Positions 2,965-49,976 of a stretch of DNA of 64,000 nucleotides are shown here, piece after piece (within the stretch, counting starts at the first letter, position 1; the number at the start of each line of letters is the position of its first letter). A program made the position numbers and the translations under genes. Under the pieces are notes generated by a model that was given only the letters and a program-made list of their open reading frames with translations, did no database searches and was not told where the DNA came from. The stretch is from Bacillus sp. ISL-41 (GTDB taxonomy: Bacteria; Bacillota; Bacilli; Bacillales; Cytobacillaceae). Location of the stretch: NCBI RefSeq assembly GCF_018613235.1, contig NZ_JAGGQP010000027.1, positions 62,001 to 126,000 on the forward strand, read 5' to 3'.

Positions 2965-3827
2965 TATGCTGTTCCTCCCTTCATGCGTTTTCTGCCAATT
3001 AATTTTGATAGGAAAGAAGGTCCTTTCGCTTCCTTGAACAAGGTAATTTCCCGCCTGCTCGAGATTCTTTCAGCCATTTTAAAAATGGCTTTGGCTACAT
3101 CGGTCTTGCCCTGGTTGATGACAAAAGGAATTCCAATATTAAGTGATTGTGAACATGTTTGAAAGTCATTCGGGATATATACAGGATCCTCGTAGCCAAG
3201 AATCCTTGCCGCATCTGCTGCCTGGATGACGCTCTCCATGTTTGCCCGATTCACTACGAGTGTGACTTTATTTTTCAGTTCGAGGATATCGAAGGTCTCG
3301 AGCATCAGCTTCGTATTTTTCAACGCTGTCATCTCGAGATTGGCCATAACCATGATTTGGTCTGCTTTTTCAGCGATATGGACTGTATGATCATTAAGGC
3401 CTACAGACGTATCAACGACCACATAATCATAATTCAGCAGCATAAAGTCGAGGATTTTATCGACGGCTTCTTTCGTGACAAGATCTGCATACTCAGGCCG
3501 GTCCGGAGCCGCCATGACCTTCACACCGCTTTCATGCTTCGACATATAGCCTTCCATAGAATGTTCATCGAGAGTGCTCATCCCCTCAATCACTTCTTTA
3601 ATGGTAAAAGCAGACTTCAAATCCATGGCTAGCCCGATATCACCAAATTGAAAATCCCCATCCAATATCGCTACAGATATATTTTTCTTCACTAAAGCTC
3701 CAGCCAGATTGACCGTGAGGACCGTGCGACCAATCCCGCCTTTTGCACTGCAAACGGCAATAAGCTCGCCACGTTTCATCTTAGCCGGCTTCTTTTCATG
3801 TATTTGCAGTTCATCCGTGTTTTCCAT
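2964..3827 (-). CDS. tadZ: TadZ/CpaE-like MinD/ParA-family ATPase
   Basis: MinD-superfamily protein (287 aa) thought to place the Tad machine at its site in the cell. The Walker A region reads KGGIGRT (about residues 29-35): the signature first lysine is present but the usual second lysine is arginine, as in some atypical TadZ proteins. The switch region ILDGDFQFGD (about 54-63) and VVVDTSVGLND (about 137-147) are kept. There is no separate receiver domain, unlike Caulobacter CpaE. The ribosome binding site GGAGG lies about 10 bases before the ATG. It is coupled to tadA by a one-base overlap. Confidence 0.9.
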   Translation of the reverse strand: MENTDELQIHEKKPAKMKRGELIAVCSAKGGIGRTVLTVNLAGALVKKNISVAILDGDFQFGDIGLAMDLKSAFTIKEVIEGMSTLDEHSMEGYMSKHESGVKVMAAPDRPEYADLVTKEAVDKILDFMLLNYDYVVVDTSVGLNDHTVHIAEKADQIMVMANLEMTALKNTKLMLETFDILELKNKVTLVVNRANMESVIQAADAARILGYEDPVYIPNDFQTCSQSLNIGIPFVINQGKTDVAKAIFKMAERISSRREITLFKEAKGPSFLSKLIGRKRMKGGTA

Positions 3828-3849
3828 GATTGGTCACCCTCCATCTTCT

Positions 3850-4548
3850 TCAATCTTGGTCGCTGTCGCCCGCTTCTTTTTCTGTTATGACTGGCCGCTT
3901 ATGCAGCATGAAATGGATATTGCCTTGTTCAGCCGAATTGACAAGTTTTAAAGCATCCGCCGGCTTAAGTTCTACCGTAACTGAAGTATATTCGGCATAT
4001 GGCTCTTGTGTATCCTCAGGAAGGACCATTTTCCGCCCAACCGCCAGTACCCTTGCTTTTTCCAAGATGATTTTAGACTCAACTTTCCCTTCCTGCCCCG
4101 GCAGCTTTTTAGAGAACATAATGTCGACTTCATCTTCAGGTTCAATCAGGTTTGCAGTTGATTGATTTAAATTTACTCCCACAGAAACAGCACGATAACC
4201 ATCCCTGACTTTTCTTGAAACATAGATATTTTCTGCAGTCTGGGATCCCAGCCGGTGGGAAAGGATTGGCTCGCCTTGTTCAATCTCAGCGTTCGCCAGC
4301 TTCCCCTCAACATCGCCAAAGCTTTTAATGGAGTTGGCGTGCAATGCCTTTTCAGGAACCATGGCAGTTTCCAGTTTTGCAGAAGTGATTTGCTCATTTT
4401 TCTCGATTTTTTCTTTGGCGACAACAATCTCCACCAAATTGCTGTTCATCGCCTTTTCAGCTTTCACTTGATTCATATATTGAAAGAATAAAAACGTCGT
4501 TACTATACCCATTACTAATGCGAGGACCAAAACAAGCTTTGACCGCAT
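3850..4548 (-). CDS. cpaB: CpaB/RcpC-like pilus assembly protein with SAF domain
   Basis: Membrane-anchored periplasm-side (cell-wall-side) Tad protein of 232 aa. Residues 1-25 are a signal anchor, followed by the SAF domain (about 42-105, starting EIVVAKEKIEKNEQIT) and the RcpC/CpaB domain (about 105-215). RcpC in diderms is linked to the outer-membrane secretin; no secretin gene is visible here, as expected for a monoderm, so the partner is unknown. The gene lies between tadZ and the TadG-like gene with short gaps and belongs to the same operon. Confidence 0.88.
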   Translation of the reverse strand: MRSKLVLVLALVMGIVTTFLFFQYMNQVKAEKAMNSNLVEIVVAKEKIEKNEQITSAKLETAMVPEKALHANSIKSFGDVEGKLANAEIEQGEPILSHRLGSQTAENIYVSRKVRDGYRAVSVGVNLNQSTANLIEPEDEVDIMFSKKLPGQEGKVESKIILEKARVLAVGRKMVLPEDTQEPYAEYTSVTVELKPADALKLVNSAEQGNIHFMLHKRPVITEKEAGDSDQD

Positions 4549-4558
4549 ATTTGATCAC

Positions 4559-5467
4559 CTACTCCGTTATTCGAATGCTGTATGCGCCCTTAAAGGCGGC
4601 TGTTTCACCTTCAAAACCCGTTCCTGCGCGTTTGATGAAAATCCCCTTGATTGAAGTGTCATGGCTGTCCATTGGGTCGGTAATATAGAAATAAGCGAAA
4701 CCAGTGATTTTCACTTCTTTTACCTGGTTGACATCCGTGCTGTATGGTTTATAGACAGGGACAAGCAGGATCCTTGAACAGTTCCTTGAATTTATATCCC
4801 TTGGGAGTTCTGGACAAGAATTCACTTTCTCCTTGACCACTTCCCTTGTTTTACCGGCAATATTACCTGTTTGTGTGATGACGATATCCCCTACAGAAAG
4901 CTCGTTTTGATAGCCATTACGGAGGTTTTCTTCATATGGACGGGCTCCTGTATCACCCAGTGCAAGGACTCCAAAGTTGCCATATTCTACTCCGCCAGTA
5001 TCCACTTTCAGCTGGTATTCCTTATTAAACTCCAATGGAATGCTGTCATCGATGCCAAGCGGTGCTGCACCTTCTGCCCGTCCCATCGTTCTTAACTCAG
5101 CAGCAGAATGCGCTTGGACATTGACAGTTTCAAAGCCAAGTAGTTTTGAGAATGCGAGGTCTACCTTTTTGGACAAATCAATACCGACTTTCTTCTCCAT
5201 ATCTATTGAAATATCATCTACATTCGAGCCGTCTTTATGGGCTGCAACGATGCTTCGTACCACCTCTTCAACCTTCGCTTCATTGTTTGTCAGCTCCTGG
5301 GCTCCAGAAAGGACCGCCGCATTAGCTGTTTTCTGAAGCTCCGCCTTCGTCATATATACCATCCCGCCATCAATTGCGAGACCGGCCATACTAAGGATGA
5401 CAAACATCGAAAGGGCAGCCAATAGAATGGTGTTTCCTGATTCCTCCGCTAACCATCTTCGTGCCAT
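4559..5467 (-). CDS. TadG-like pilus assembly protein
   Basis: Protein of 302 aa with one N-terminal membrane helix (about 12-35, SGNTILLAALSMFVILSMAG) preceded by an arginine-rich start, the pseudopilin-like N-terminus of the TadE/TadG group. The rest is probably extracytoplasmic. TadG-related proteins are minor pilus or assembly components with a TadE-like N-terminal segment and a variable body. This body is shorter than in proteobacterial TadG, which often carries a von Willebrand A domain that I do not see here. It directly follows tadE with a 10-base gap. Role assigned from position and N-terminal pattern. Confidence 0.8.
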   Translation of the reverse strand: MARRWLAEESGNTILLAALSMFVILSMAGLAIDGGMVYMTKAELQKTANAAVLSGAQELTNNEAKVEEVVRSIVAAHKDGSNVDDISIDMEKKVGIDLSKKVDLAFSKLLGFETVNVQAHSAAELRTMGRAEGAAPLGIDDSIPLEFNKEYQLKVDTGGVEYGNFGVLALGDTGARPYEENLRNGYQNELSVGDIVITQTGNIAGKTREVVKEKVNSCPELPRDINSRNCSRILLVPVYKPYSTDVNQVKEVKITGFAYFYITDPMDSHDTSIKGIFIKRAGTGFEGETAAFKGAYSIRITE

Positions 5468-5477
5468 ATTTTCCTCC

Positions 5478-5861
5478 TCACTCCACTCTGATCGTTGACT
5501 CCGCCTTAATCGTCAAGGATGAAGAAAACAGGCTGGATATAAACGGAGTGAAAAATTGATAAGGATATTCCAACTTCACAGTTATATAGTCACCAGCAAC
5601 ACGTCCCGCTTCTCCAGGAGAAATAGAGATGGCCAGTTTATCAATTTCATTCAGCTGTACATAATCCCTGGCAAAAGCAGTGACTTCGGAATCACTTTTA
5701 CCGAGACCTCCCACCCTGACGGTTTCCTGGGCTGCCATATGAAGATGGGCATATGAATACATAATCCTTCCGAAATCCAAAATCCCTACCAACAGCAATA
5801 AAAGAACCGGCAGAACGAGGGCCGTCTCAACCAGTGATTGCCCCCTCTCATCACGTCTCAA
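5478..5861 (-). CDS. tadE: TadE-like minor pseudopilin
   Basis: Small TadE-domain protein (127 aa). It starts MRRDERGQSLVETALVLPVLL: the RGQSLVE/A pattern is the pseudopilin-type cleavage and TM segment seen in TadE, processed by the dedicated prepilin peptidase. The rest is a short beta-rich extracytoplasmic domain. The start overlaps the end of the prepilin peptidase gene by four bases (ATGA), so processing enzyme and substrate are co-translated. Confidence 0.88.
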   Translation of the reverse strand: MRRDERGQSLVETALVLPVLLLLLVGILDFGRIMYSYAHLHMAAQETVRVGGLGKSDSEVTAFARDYVQLNEIDKLAISISPGEAGRVAGDYITVKLEYPYQFFTPFISSLFSSSLTIKAESTIRVE

Positions 5862-6379
5862 AGCAATCCTCCTCCAGCTGGAAACACAATGGCAGCCAAA
5901 GCTCCAATCGCGATGGCCACTCCATATGGATAGGTCGTGTTCAAGGCTTCCTTATCCAGTCCAAGCGGGACTTTCATACCGCTGCGCAACCCGCCCAGGA
6001 ACATGCCAATCTGCTTCAGCCTATTCAAGGCACCCTTTCTGAAAAACAGGATGATCATCGCCATAATCCCTCCAGCAAGCGCCATATAAACAGCCGCCGT
6101 CAATACAAATACAACTCCCTTTAAGCCCCCCACCACCGCAAGCAGTTTCACATCCCCAGCTCCCATCCCTCCGAGCAAATAGGGGATCAGCAAAATAGAG
6201 AAACCAACTGCTGTCCCTGCAAGGGCAAAGCCCAGCCCCTGGACTCCATCAATGGCCGAATTCAAAACCAGACCCACCAGTAAAAAAGGAAATAAAACCT
6301 TGTTATAAATCTTCCGTTCTCTCAAATCGGTTATGACACAGATAACTATTAAAGTTATCAATAAAAAATCAACAAACAT
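5858..6379 (-). CDS. A24 prepilin peptidase (TadV/CpaA-like)
   Basis: Integral membrane aspartic peptidase (173 aa) that cleaves Flp prepilin and the TadE/TadG pseudopilins. The two catalytic aspartates are visible: D18 in VITDLRERKIYN and D76 in GMGAGDVKLL. It lacks the N-methylating cysteine domain of PilD, matching the short TadV/CpaA form. About five to six hydrophobic helices fill the protein. It is the first gene after the terminator that follows flp, so it may have lower expression than the pilin or its own promoter. Confidence 0.92.
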   Translation of the reverse strand: MFVDFLLITLIVICVITDLRERKIYNKVLFPFLLVGLVLNSAIDGVQGLGFALAGTAVGFSILLIPYLLGGMGAGDVKLLAVVGGLKGVVFVLTAAVYMALAGGIMAMIILFFRKGALNRLKQIGMFLGGLRSGMKVPLGLDKEALNTTYPYGVAIAIGALAAIVFPAGGGLL

Positions 6380-6407
6380 GAATTTACCTCATTTCAGTGA
6401 GGAGTTT

Positions 6408-6440
6408 TAAAAAAGCCTCACGTTTCTCAACGCGAGGCTG
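6408..6440 (-). terminator. Rho-independent terminator after flp
   Basis: On the minus strand AGCCTC-GCGTT-loop-AACG-GAGGCT is followed by TTTTTT. It lies between the pilin gene and the prepilin peptidase gene, so the short DUF192-flp transcript can end here while some polymerase reads on into the machinery genes. A strong pilin transcript over weaker assembly genes is a usual arrangement in pilus loci. Confidence 0.88.
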
Positions 6441-6505
6441 TTTATTGGTGTACCTCTGACTACAATTTATAAATAAATGAATAAATGCCTTAGTTAATAG
6501 TAAGA

Positions 6506-6697
6506 TTATGGTGTAGTAGGAGTATCATTTCTGCCGGTTACTGCTTTAGTTACCTCTCTAAACATTTCAAGAATCTGTTCACGCAATAAAGCCAACACAC
6601 CAACAACCGCTACCGCAATAACTCCAAGTACCAAACCGTACTCAGTCATACCTTGTCCTTGTTCTTCTGTGAATAGTGCTTTCATTTTTGCTTTCAT
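6506..6697 (-). CDS. flp: Flp family type IVb pilin
   Basis: Major pilin precursor (63 aa). The basic leader MKAKMKALFTEEQG is predicted to be cleaved after G14, giving QGMTEY with the conserved Glu+5 and Tyr+6 of Flp pilins, followed by one hydrophobic helix (about 21-41) and a short tail with a threonine/proline end. It lies 16 bases after the DUF192 gene, so both are on the riboswitch-controlled transcript. A strong terminator follows. Confidence 0.95.
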   Translation of the reverse strand: MKAKMKALFTEEQGQGMTEYGLVLGVIAVAVVGVLALLREQILEMFREVTKAVTGRNDTPTTP

Positions 6698-6713
6698 TGT
6701 TTAAAACCCCTTT

Positions 6714-7058
6714 TCATTTTATTAGTTTGATAGAATGACCGACTTTCGTTCCGCTATTCCGGATCGTGCCTTCTGGAAGCTCGAAGACGGAATATGCACC
6801 TTTGCAGCGCTTTCCCATTTTCGCAGGCTCAAGTTGTTCGTCCGCGCCTACAATTTCATCGTTCTCGTTGATGTAAAGAACATCGATGGAATAGTTCATA
6901 AAAAAGGTATGGATGGACCGGCAGGGTTTTATATAGAGACTGTGTCCTTCTGGCAAGCTTTCTGTCAGCATCAACCCTTTGAATCTGCTGAAAAAGGTAT
7001 CTGCTATTTTTACATCCGCTGCCAATTCTTTGCCGTTCGATTCGTTCACAAGTCTCAT
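6714..7058 (-). CDS. DUF192 family protein
   Basis: Protein of 114 aa when started at the ATG at 7058 (MRLVNES...), which has GGAGGTG nine bases upstream; an open frame continues 23 codons further up but runs into the riboswitch terminator. DUF192 proteins are small beta-rich domains of unknown function; visible family features are FFSRFKGLMLTESLP and HTFFMNYSIDVLYIN. It is the first gene of the c-di-GMP-controlled transcript and lies 16 bases before flp. Position suggests a role in pilus biogenesis, but nothing in the sequence shows one. Confidence 0.88.
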   Translation of the reverse strand: MRLVNESNGKELAADVKIADTFFSRFKGLMLTESLPEGHSLYIKPCRSIHTFFMNYSIDVLYINENDEIVGADEQLEPAKMGKRCKGAYSVFELPEGTIRNSGTKVGHSIKLIK

Positions 7059-7082
7059 TCCGCTTTTCACCTCCGACTGTAC

Positions 7083-7144: not shown

Positions 7145-7243
7145 CTGATCTTTCGGTAGCTGGCTGGCTTAGCAATGGTTTGCCGTAGCCCCTTTAGCTT
7201 TGCGTCGCTGGTTTTCACCAGGTTTGCCTTTATCGAGAATCAG
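7145..7243 (-). promoter_or_regulatory. Class I cyclic-di-GMP riboswitch (GEMM-I)
   Basis: The minus strand carries the conserved parts of the GEMM-I aptamer in order: GGCAAACC, a P2 helix CTGGT-GAAA-ACCAG with the GAAA tetraloop, the GACGCAAAGC core, a P3 helix (GGGGCT...AGCC) containing AAACCATTGC as in the Vibrio Vc2 aptamer, and a closing TACCGA segment. CTGAT at 7239-7243 pairs with ATCAG at 7145-7149 to close P1. A Rho-independent hairpin follows. It controls the DUF192-flp transcript. I cannot decide from sequence alone whether ligand turns the switch on or off. Confidence 0.88.
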
Positions 7244-29387: not shown

Positions 29388-29460
29388 AAAAAAGGCAATG
29401 CTAAACTAGAGGGTTAAAAAAGGGTACACTGCTCCCGTCTTTTTAATCCTCGTTTTTTTC

Positions 29461-29597
29461 CTTCTCCCATCCAGACTTTAACTGTCGGCCCTGGAGTTTC
29501 ACCAGATCCACCGTTTAACAAGTGTTAACCGGGTCACGGACTAAGAAGCACATGCTTCATCACCGCCGGTTGGGAATTTCACCCGACCCCGAAGGAA
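29461..29597 (-). promoter_or_regulatory. FMN riboswitch (RFN element)
   Basis: The minus strand carries the RFN aptamer: CCTTCGGGGTCGGGTGAAATTC-like P1/P2 start, CCGGCGGTGAT, AGTCCGTGACCC, GGTGGATCTGGTGAAACTCC and GCCGACAGTTAAAGTCTGGATGGGAGA at the end. FMN binding should favour the downstream terminator and shut off ribDE(BA)H. This is one of the most conserved riboswitches, and every conserved block is present. Confidence 0.97.
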
Positions 29598-29656
29598 TGT
29601 ATTAAGTTAGTGTCATTATACAGAACTATTAGATAAATGAAAAACAAAACAACCTT

Positions 29657-49232: not shown

Positions 49233-49265
49233 AGAAAAAGCCTGTGGATCGGTCCACAGGCTTTC
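49233..49265 (-). terminator. Terminator after the c-di-GMP-controlled small gene
   Basis: On the minus strand AAAGCCTGTGGA-CCGA-TCCACAGGCTTTTTC, 16 bases after the stop; shows the riboswitch unit is monocistronic. Confidence 0.93.
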
Positions 49266-49280
49266 ATATTTTAATAGTTT

Positions 49281-49505
49281 CTAAACCACATAATCTTCTG
49301 TTAACTTACTGCAGGCATTCGATAGATTCTGCAAGCATTCCATCCTAAGCTTTTCGTCGCAGATAAAGTCATTAAGCAGCTCTTCTTCAAGCTTAAATTG
49401 AATTTGATTGATTTCTTCCCGTAACCTCTCTCTTTTTTCAACTTCAGATAAATGAAACTCTATCTCCCGTTCAAAGTACTCTACCGTCCCAAATAAAACC
49501 GTCAA
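49281..49505 (-). CDS. Orphan coiled-coil protein under c-di-GMP riboswitch control
   Basis: Small protein of about 74 aa if started at the TTG at 49505, which sits five bases after AAGGTGGAGG; a GTG at 49517 gives 78 aa but would put that site inside the gene. Highly charged and helical, rich in Glu/Lys/Arg with heptad-like leucines (EKRERLREEINQIQFKLEEELL), two cysteines in the C-terminal third, no membrane segment. I recognise no family. It is the only gene between the class I c-di-GMP riboswitch at 49771-49853 and a strong terminator, so c-di-GMP should govern it alone. Confidence 0.7.
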   Translation of the reverse strand: MTVLFGTVEYFEREIEFHLSEVEKRERLREEINQIQFKLEEELLNDFICDEKLRMECLQNLSNACSKLTEDYVV

Positions 49506-49680
49506 CGTTTCCTCCACCTTTCATAAAAAATTGAATATCCTATGTGCTGAAACCAAATCTGCCAAAAGGATCATTTTATTTTGTCCTGTCAAGTAACTTA
49601 AGTATTATTTATCCTATATCGCAAAATACAAACGTGAAATTCGTTTCTTTTTGCAATATGGTGCAGAAAGAGACATTCCA

Positions 49681-49709
49681 AAAAAAAATCCCCCAAAAGG
49701 ACGGCGGAT
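49681..49709 (-). terminator. Terminator of the second c-di-GMP riboswitch
   Basis: On the minus strand AATCCGCC-GTCCTTTT-GGGGGATT followed by T7. Its left arm (49702-49708) is also perfectly complementary over seven bases (GGCGGAT/ATCCGCC) to a segment at 49736-49742 nearer the aptamer, giving a clear terminator/antiterminator choice. Confidence 0.85.
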
Positions 49710-49770
49710 TTAATGTGGCAAACAGTCTTCAAAACCATCCGCCTGTACCTGGTGTTCTCATCCGTTCTTT

Positions 49771-49853
49771 TTTGGCAACCCGACGATCATAGCAGTCATG
49801 CCTTAGACTCGTGGCTTTGCGTCCTCATCTTTCAATGAGTTTGCCTTTTTCAG
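49771..49853 (-). promoter_or_regulatory. Class I cyclic-di-GMP riboswitch (GEMM-I), second copy
   Basis: The minus strand reads AAAGGCAAAC, P2 CTCAT-TGAAAG-ATGAG with the GAAA tetraloop, GGACGCAAAGCC core, ACGAGTCTAAGGC (tetraloop receptor side of P3), GATCGTCGGGTTGCC closing P1 (GGCAA/TTGCC). This is closer to the GEMM-I consensus than the copy at 7145. A terminator with a competing antiterminator follows, then the 74-codon gene. Confidence 0.93.
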
Positions 49854-49976
49854 TTCTAATTAAAATATAAAACTTTAGTACTGTTATTTCAACAATTTTC
49901 GCCATTTTCTTACAAGGATGAGTCTTTTTTCCTACAACTTTGTGAATGCCAGGTGCCATCTCTTGCTTTTGAAGAA

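Follow-up and report, generated by a model that had tools for sequence, protein, structure and literature searches.

According to the part of the source available, Bc2 RNA of Bacillus thuringiensis, a c-di-GMP-I riboswitch acting by transcription termination on the adhesin gene cap, is a proven ON switch (PMC4933901). Bc1 was described as binding c-di-GMP, while the expression of its genes remained unchanged (PMC11218506, in the text accessible), so that an aptamer alone is no proof of control. In B. methanolicus MGA3, the available part of the report mentions c-di-GMP-I coupled to sinI and two riboswitches preceding genes of unknown function (PMC4342826). Concerning small proteins of similar length, B. 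subtilis yvfG is located opposite the end of the eps matrix operon as far as the accessible text tells (PMC5540618), and a function for YvfG was not found in the open-licence literature, which leaves most subscription journals outside.

The locus described here lies on the minus strand of the window, i.e., the whole 64,000-nucleotide stretch of Bacillus sp. ISL-41 DNA that was analysed, and joins a c-di-GMP-I riboswitch to a 74-codon gene (Table 1). It shares the c-di-GMP-I aptamer and the termination principle with Bc2/cap, from which it differs in its target, an adhesin in the case of Bc2, and in that the ON direction is proven for the latter (PMC4933901, in the part available). Compared with the Rfam RF01051 class, it has the same full-length aptamer and a transcription-terminator platform, whereas the target is a small nameless protein family conserved across genera. 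The riboswitch itself belongs to a known class; its target is a nameless, conserved family of proteins, and the known relative of that family is a distant one.

Elements of the locus

The earlier note, made from the sequence alone, had placed a GEMM-I aptamer followed by a terminator on the minus strand, and had named the RF01051 score as a refuting test. The aptamer was recovered far above the gathering cut-off, in an alignment that covers its full length (model positions 1–87), and a compact hairpin with a T run was located 3′ of it, at 49686–49711; this terminator and a conserved alternative pairing adjoin the aptamer, as expected for the expression platform of the class. The claim that the only output is one small gene ending at its own terminator was likewise borne out for the window, where the transcript, as far as it can be read from the DNA, holds a single gene.

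Table 1. Features of the riboswitch locus in the window
Feature	Position	Strand	Details
Promoter-like TTGAAA-17-TATATT 5′ of the aptamer	49864..49892	(−)	Consensus scan, 10/12 matches
c-di-GMP-I (GEMM-I) riboswitch aptamer	49771..49855	(−)	RF01051 86.0 bits, gathering score 35
CGGAT, 3′ next to helix P1, proposed antiterminator strand	49760..49764	(−)	Partner ATCCG 49705–49709
Hairpin between aptamer and terminator	49717..49743	(−)	12 bp, −12.8 kcal/mol
Riboswitch terminator (intrinsic), ending in a T run	49680..49711	(−)	Fold −11.1 kcal/mol
Second conserved non-coding block, terminator–gene interval	49583..49633	(−)	GTTTG-N14-GGATAAATAATACTTAAG...CTTGACAG
Shine-Dalgarno sequence	49511..49520	(−)	AAGGTGGAGG; conserved in genus
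74-codon gene, YvfG-like small protein	49281..49505	(−)	TTG start at 49505
Terminator 3′ of the gene	49237..49264	(−)	12-bp hairpin, −18.8 kcal/mol, then T run

In the 11 aligned leaders, the promoter-like element is largely kept, with invariant TGTTG and TTATATTTT columns, and the 5′ arm of the riboswitch terminator, AATCCGCC, is present in 10. The block between the terminator and the gene contains many invariant columns in the same alignment and could possibly be a second promoter; its GTTTG-N14-GGATAA motif resembles a sigma-B-type promoter.

TTG at 49505 was assigned as the start codon because the GTG at 49517, from which the longer version of the ORF listing starts, sits in the Shine-Dalgarno sequence, and because TTG is kept in 19/20 same-genus genomes (GTG stands in L012). 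Variable columns of 18 same-genus genes fall on codon positions 1, 2, and 3 in a 20/9/66 distribution, and the median dN/dS of 20 genus genes is 0.054 (144 of the 190 pairs were usable with dS > 0.05, and the median was taken over pairs with dS < 3). The coding-type substitution pattern that the earlier note had asked of the homologues is thereby present, indicating that the gene is real and under strong purifying selection. In other genera, extra small ORFs adjoin the gene (L090, L091, L093, L094; L065, L066, L072, L092; L148), namely a 55–60-aa Cys-rich ORF before it, a 76–98-aa ORF after it, or a 103-aa ORF before it; in some of these genera, additional small ORFs apparently form part of the transcript.

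Family distribution and riboswitch linkage

The 74-aa protein was found in 27 of the 61 genomes searched (the window's own counted), including 20/21 of the window's genus, Mesobacillus. In the window's taxonomic family, 72 of 193 genomes and 12 of 25 genera carry a member, and in the order 28 of 397 genomes; the protein family is spread over many genera, patchily. No match was found in phages, and one plasmid record, from Peribacillus asahii, has a family member, for which no gene is listed in the (incomplete) PLSDB table. Being short, often starting with TTG, and in the plasmid copy having no listed gene, the family is easily overlooked. Typical Bacillaceae members also occur in the records titled Chryseobacterium sp. 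ISL-80 (L046) and Pseudomonas sp. ISL-84 (L067), suggesting that these names are probably wrong.

That homologues should also follow the riboswitch was the other check named beforehand, and it came out mostly positive. Rfam detected a c-di-GMP-I aptamer 5′ of the gene in 19 of the 20 loci scanned, 18 of them scoring best as RF01051 and one (L013) as the RF03167 variant; the sole miss was L021, a locus of another genus. The aptamer precedes the gene in all 20 gene-bearing Mesobacillus genomes, window included, and in 5/9 more distant loci. With our own covariance model, built from 17 aptamers (two of the window and 15 of relatives), a same-strand upstream aptamer was located in 37 of the 55 named loci, at a distance of 113 to 939 nt from the start codon and at a chance expectation of about 0.1% per gene; some of the 55 come from genomes that had also supplied training aptamers. 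The riboswitch was missing at the other 18 loci, and Rfam found nothing in the 14 of these that were scanned. Of the remaining four, L074 and L092 offered just 511 and 309 bases of upstream sequence, and an aptamer is present at L027 and L148, whose genes resemble that of L092. Mapped on the family tree (54 rows), the riboswitch label is clustered, with 6 changes against a shuffled mean of 15.2, and 13 of the 18 riboswitch-free rows fell in two clades, of 10 and 3.

Proposed mechanism and direction of the switch

A seven-base antiterminator pairing had been proposed for the window; the complementarity exists, although its coordinates had to be shifted by one base, to 49737–49743 (GGCGGAT) with 49703–49709 (ATCCGCC), and it is complete in just two of the 11 aligned leaders, those of the window and L043. 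GGCGGAT forms the 5′ arm of the hairpin preceding the terminator, for which the terminator strand is the alternative partner. Another strand, CGGAT directly 3′ of P1, pairs with ATCCG of the terminator in 10/11 leaders with all five pairs and without variation. A GTTTGCC element, the potential partner of GGCAAAC in the aptamer, lies in the pre-terminator hairpin only in the window, L043, L046, and L047, and is missing or located elsewhere in the remaining leaders.

The P1-adjacent strand and the 5′ half of the terminator covary across genera, as own combinations paired better than re-paired ones (permutation P 0.003, 12 group representatives). This test included 28 leaders; out of 38, eight had no terminator detected by the script, and L054 and L073 were dropped as doubtful. 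Five of the 12 groups reached 0 or 1 of 300 shuffles, while the window's own pairing was not above shuffles (70/300). These data point to the helix adjoining P1 as the putative antiterminator.

Two leaders, L063 and L065, show an overlap of the strand with the 3′ side of P1 and the 5′ arm of the terminator (11 and 12 bp), which corresponds to the logic of an OFF switch. In the minimum-energy fold of L040 with P1 forced, P1 and the antiterminator coexist, however, and equilibrium folding of 27 leaders (L064, without GGCAAAC, was dropped) revealed no coupling between P1 and the terminator, whose mean probability hardly differed between forced (0.85) and blocked P1 (0.84). Blocking P1 decreased the terminator probability by more than 0.1 in two leaders and increased it in one. 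Because of this coexistence and the P1-independent terminator probability, the assumption that c-di-GMP turns the gene OFF is favoured only weakly.

Relatives, genomic context and proposed role of the 74-aa protein

The statement that the protein belongs to no recognised family stands for Pfam and NCBIfam, where the window protein gave no match, and must be amended by profile comparisons, according to which a distant relative, YvfG, seems to exist. Up to E 10, the window protein showed no match to PF09628 (gathering score 25 bits), its genome contained none either, and no Pfam family, PF08671 (SinI) included, matched the protein. Searching Pfam, NCBIfam, and PHROGs with single proteins and 51 members produced scattered weak matches only, as seen in the best 25 of 31 and the best 25 of 62 families in two listings; a match of 1/51 members to TIGR03826 YvyF (E 7e-5) was taken as chance. 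In a profile search of solved structures, a partial match to an unrelated cyclodipeptide synthase came first (E 0.06), followed in second place by B. subtilis YvfG (2gsv), whose match was co-linear (E 0.074). When the family was aligned with 20 YvfG sequences by hhalign, the probability was 91.1% and the score 35.6 over 66 columns, while none of 60 column shuffles exceeded 18.7 and reversal of the profile gave 11.5, so the profile-level homology to YvfG (PF09628) extends over the full length. With the database size set to 4500, the window-family profile found YvfG proteins with a best E of 1.2e-6, and the YvfG profile found single family members weakly (best E 0.0028). The window protein thus looks like a distant relative of YvfG (PF09628; PDB 2gsv, 2js1), with which it shares its length, the LF...V..YF-type start, and the NL..A...K-type end, and the fold assignment rests on this distant profile match. 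The genomic setting is different: none of 30 YvfG loci (L162–L191) has a riboswitch, and in 27 of them the gene is divergent from sigL (sigma-54), while the window gene is located on contig C20 and sigL on C23. Of 299 genomes of the order, 55 have a YvfG scoring above the cut-off; the window's genome has none. We recognised no paper on the window protein family in the open-licence literature, most subscription journals being outside it. We place the small protein in a nameless, mostly Bacillaceae family distantly related to YvfG.

Three remote matches from the order search were located behind cobalamin riboswitches. Used as seeds on 394 genomes, they yielded 13 matches (seeds counted), 11 of which make up a sister subfamily (L197–L206, L209), while the other two are members of the c-di-GMP branch behind RF01051. 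All 11 sister genes have a cobalamin riboswitch upstream, and in 10 of them, L204 being the exception, a citrate-synthase-type gene lies downstream (Pfam confirmed for three). This 3′ gene looks methylcitrate-synthase-like. In profile comparisons, the three seeds matched the window's family with 97.1% and YvfG with 90.5% probability. A tentative reading, which we regard as rather less than probable, is that YvfG-like proteins of about 75 aa make up a superfamily whose genes came repeatedly under riboswitch control, by c-di-GMP-I in one branch and by cobalamin in another. The members would be ligand-gated protein regulators with an activity in common, and those of the c-di-GMP branch would constitute a missing messenger-effector layer in Bacillaceae.

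The window's genome harbours at least nine RF01051 copies, a count based on scoring 150 of 368 first-look candidates. Directly 3′ of these lie the window gene, a DUF192–Flp pilin–prepilin peptidase locus, genes of a GGDEF protein, a DUF5667 protein, a 450-aa protein followed by a sortase, a Cu_amine_oxidN1 protein, and SinI, and those of 54-aa and 45-aa proteins. One copy is a second c-di-GMP-I riboswitch in the window itself (7152–7238, minus strand, 81.3 bits). It is followed at 5400–7060 by genes for a DUF192 protein, a pilin of the Flp type that stays below the Pfam cut-off, and a prepilin peptidase, which together look like the beginning of a tad-pilus locus. The window also contains an FMN riboswitch (29455–29600, minus strand, 115.7 bits). 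At L156 (~3640–3990, minus strand; C33:199100 of the own genome), sinI (PF08671, E 3e-13) stands directly behind a c-di-GMP-I riboswitch, and the gene beside it looks SinR-like by eye. At L157 (C23:275985 and 276784 of the own genome), two such riboswitches precede the 54-aa and 45-aa proteins; by eye, the 45-aa protein has one probable membrane segment. In B. methanolicus PB1, a family member is located behind the riboswitch (L068). SinI is an antagonist of SinR, its known partner; in the window protein, PF08671 is absent. What the two have in common, in this genome and, by the available part of the report, in B. methanolicus MGA3, is that a single small protein is encoded directly behind c-di-GMP-I (PMC4342826).

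In four of the 55 loci (L082, L085, L086, L087), the nearest upstream neighbour is a GGDEF-EAL-type gene of the same orientation, with a distance of 37 bp in L087, where no riboswitch was found; these genes form one BLAST cluster, with Pfam EAL and GGDEF established for the L087 member. An HD-domain-type gene lies in the vicinity at L087, L094, and L075; these genes belong to a single BLAST cluster, in which Pfam HD was assigned to the L087 member only. A motif search of the neighbouring genes, extending to 5 kb as far as the records reach, flagged few other loci (L055, L061, L088, L089; at motif level) and none in Mesobacillus.

To the aptamer, terminator, coding gene, conserved riboswitch linkage, and distant YvfG match found by computation, we add the following proposal, to which we give about an even chance: by termination, the riboswitch would set the amount of one monocistronic 74-aa protein that acts within the c-di-GMP network by partner binding, either as a small antagonist or as an adaptor. 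c-di-GMP would set the read-through at the terminator, as the RNA family and the comparative pairing suggest, and the small protein would then be made in one lifestyle state. It may bind and modulate a partner protein, as SinI does SinR, a step that we infer from its size, the SinI precedent, and the neighbours; a GGDEF-EAL enzyme or a transcription regulator would be the first guess for this partner. A role as regulator or adaptor is plausible because SinI stands behind another c-di-GMP-I switch and GGDEF-EAL-type neighbours occur in 4/55 loci; motility, pili, or matrix, as suggested in the earlier note, would be a speculative target.

The same neighbours could also be read differently. If the protein bound the GGDEF-EAL or HD-type enzyme and tuned its activity, the riboswitch would close a homeostatic loop; the GGDEF-EAL-type genes, down to the 37-bp spacing in L087, and the HD-domain-type genes of L087, L094, and L075 fit such a feedback factor, but the adjacency spans only about two lineages and the motif search flagged few other loci and none in Mesobacillus, which leaves it an unlikely, minor option. 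The sister subfamily, in turn, invites the idea of an accessory to a metabolic or envelope process, with c-di-GMP control being incidental, in analogy to its position behind a cobalamin riboswitch (11/11) and before the citrate-synthase-type gene (10/11). We consider this quite unlikely, since the window's representative of the c-di-GMP branch is monocistronic, its transcript carrying no enzyme.

Action on sigma-54 (SigL) transcription, as might be the case for the relative YvfG, appears improbable: YvfG is divergent from sigL in 27/30 loci and the window's genome does possess sigL, but the relationship to YvfG is distant, the small gene is not near sigL (C20 vs C23), and with sigL present in 58/61 genomes its co-occurrence is uninformative. 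An ORF that is small, starts with TTG, and comes first after a switch might even be a translated leader, part of the switch and without its own function. This we hold to be extremely improbable, as the ORF is the sole gene of the transcript, is under strong purifying selection (dN/dS 0.054), and persists without a riboswitch in 18 of 55 homologues.

The conserved c-di-GMP riboswitch provides a signal context for the family, and the YvfG link, if right, offers a solved structure as a starting point. The sister branch behind cobalamin riboswitches makes a shared superfamily activity a testable question. To our knowledge, few c-di-GMP effectors are known in Gram-positive soil bacteria, and if the 74-aa protein is a protein-binding regulator, it would give a direct handle on c-di-GMP action in these organisms.
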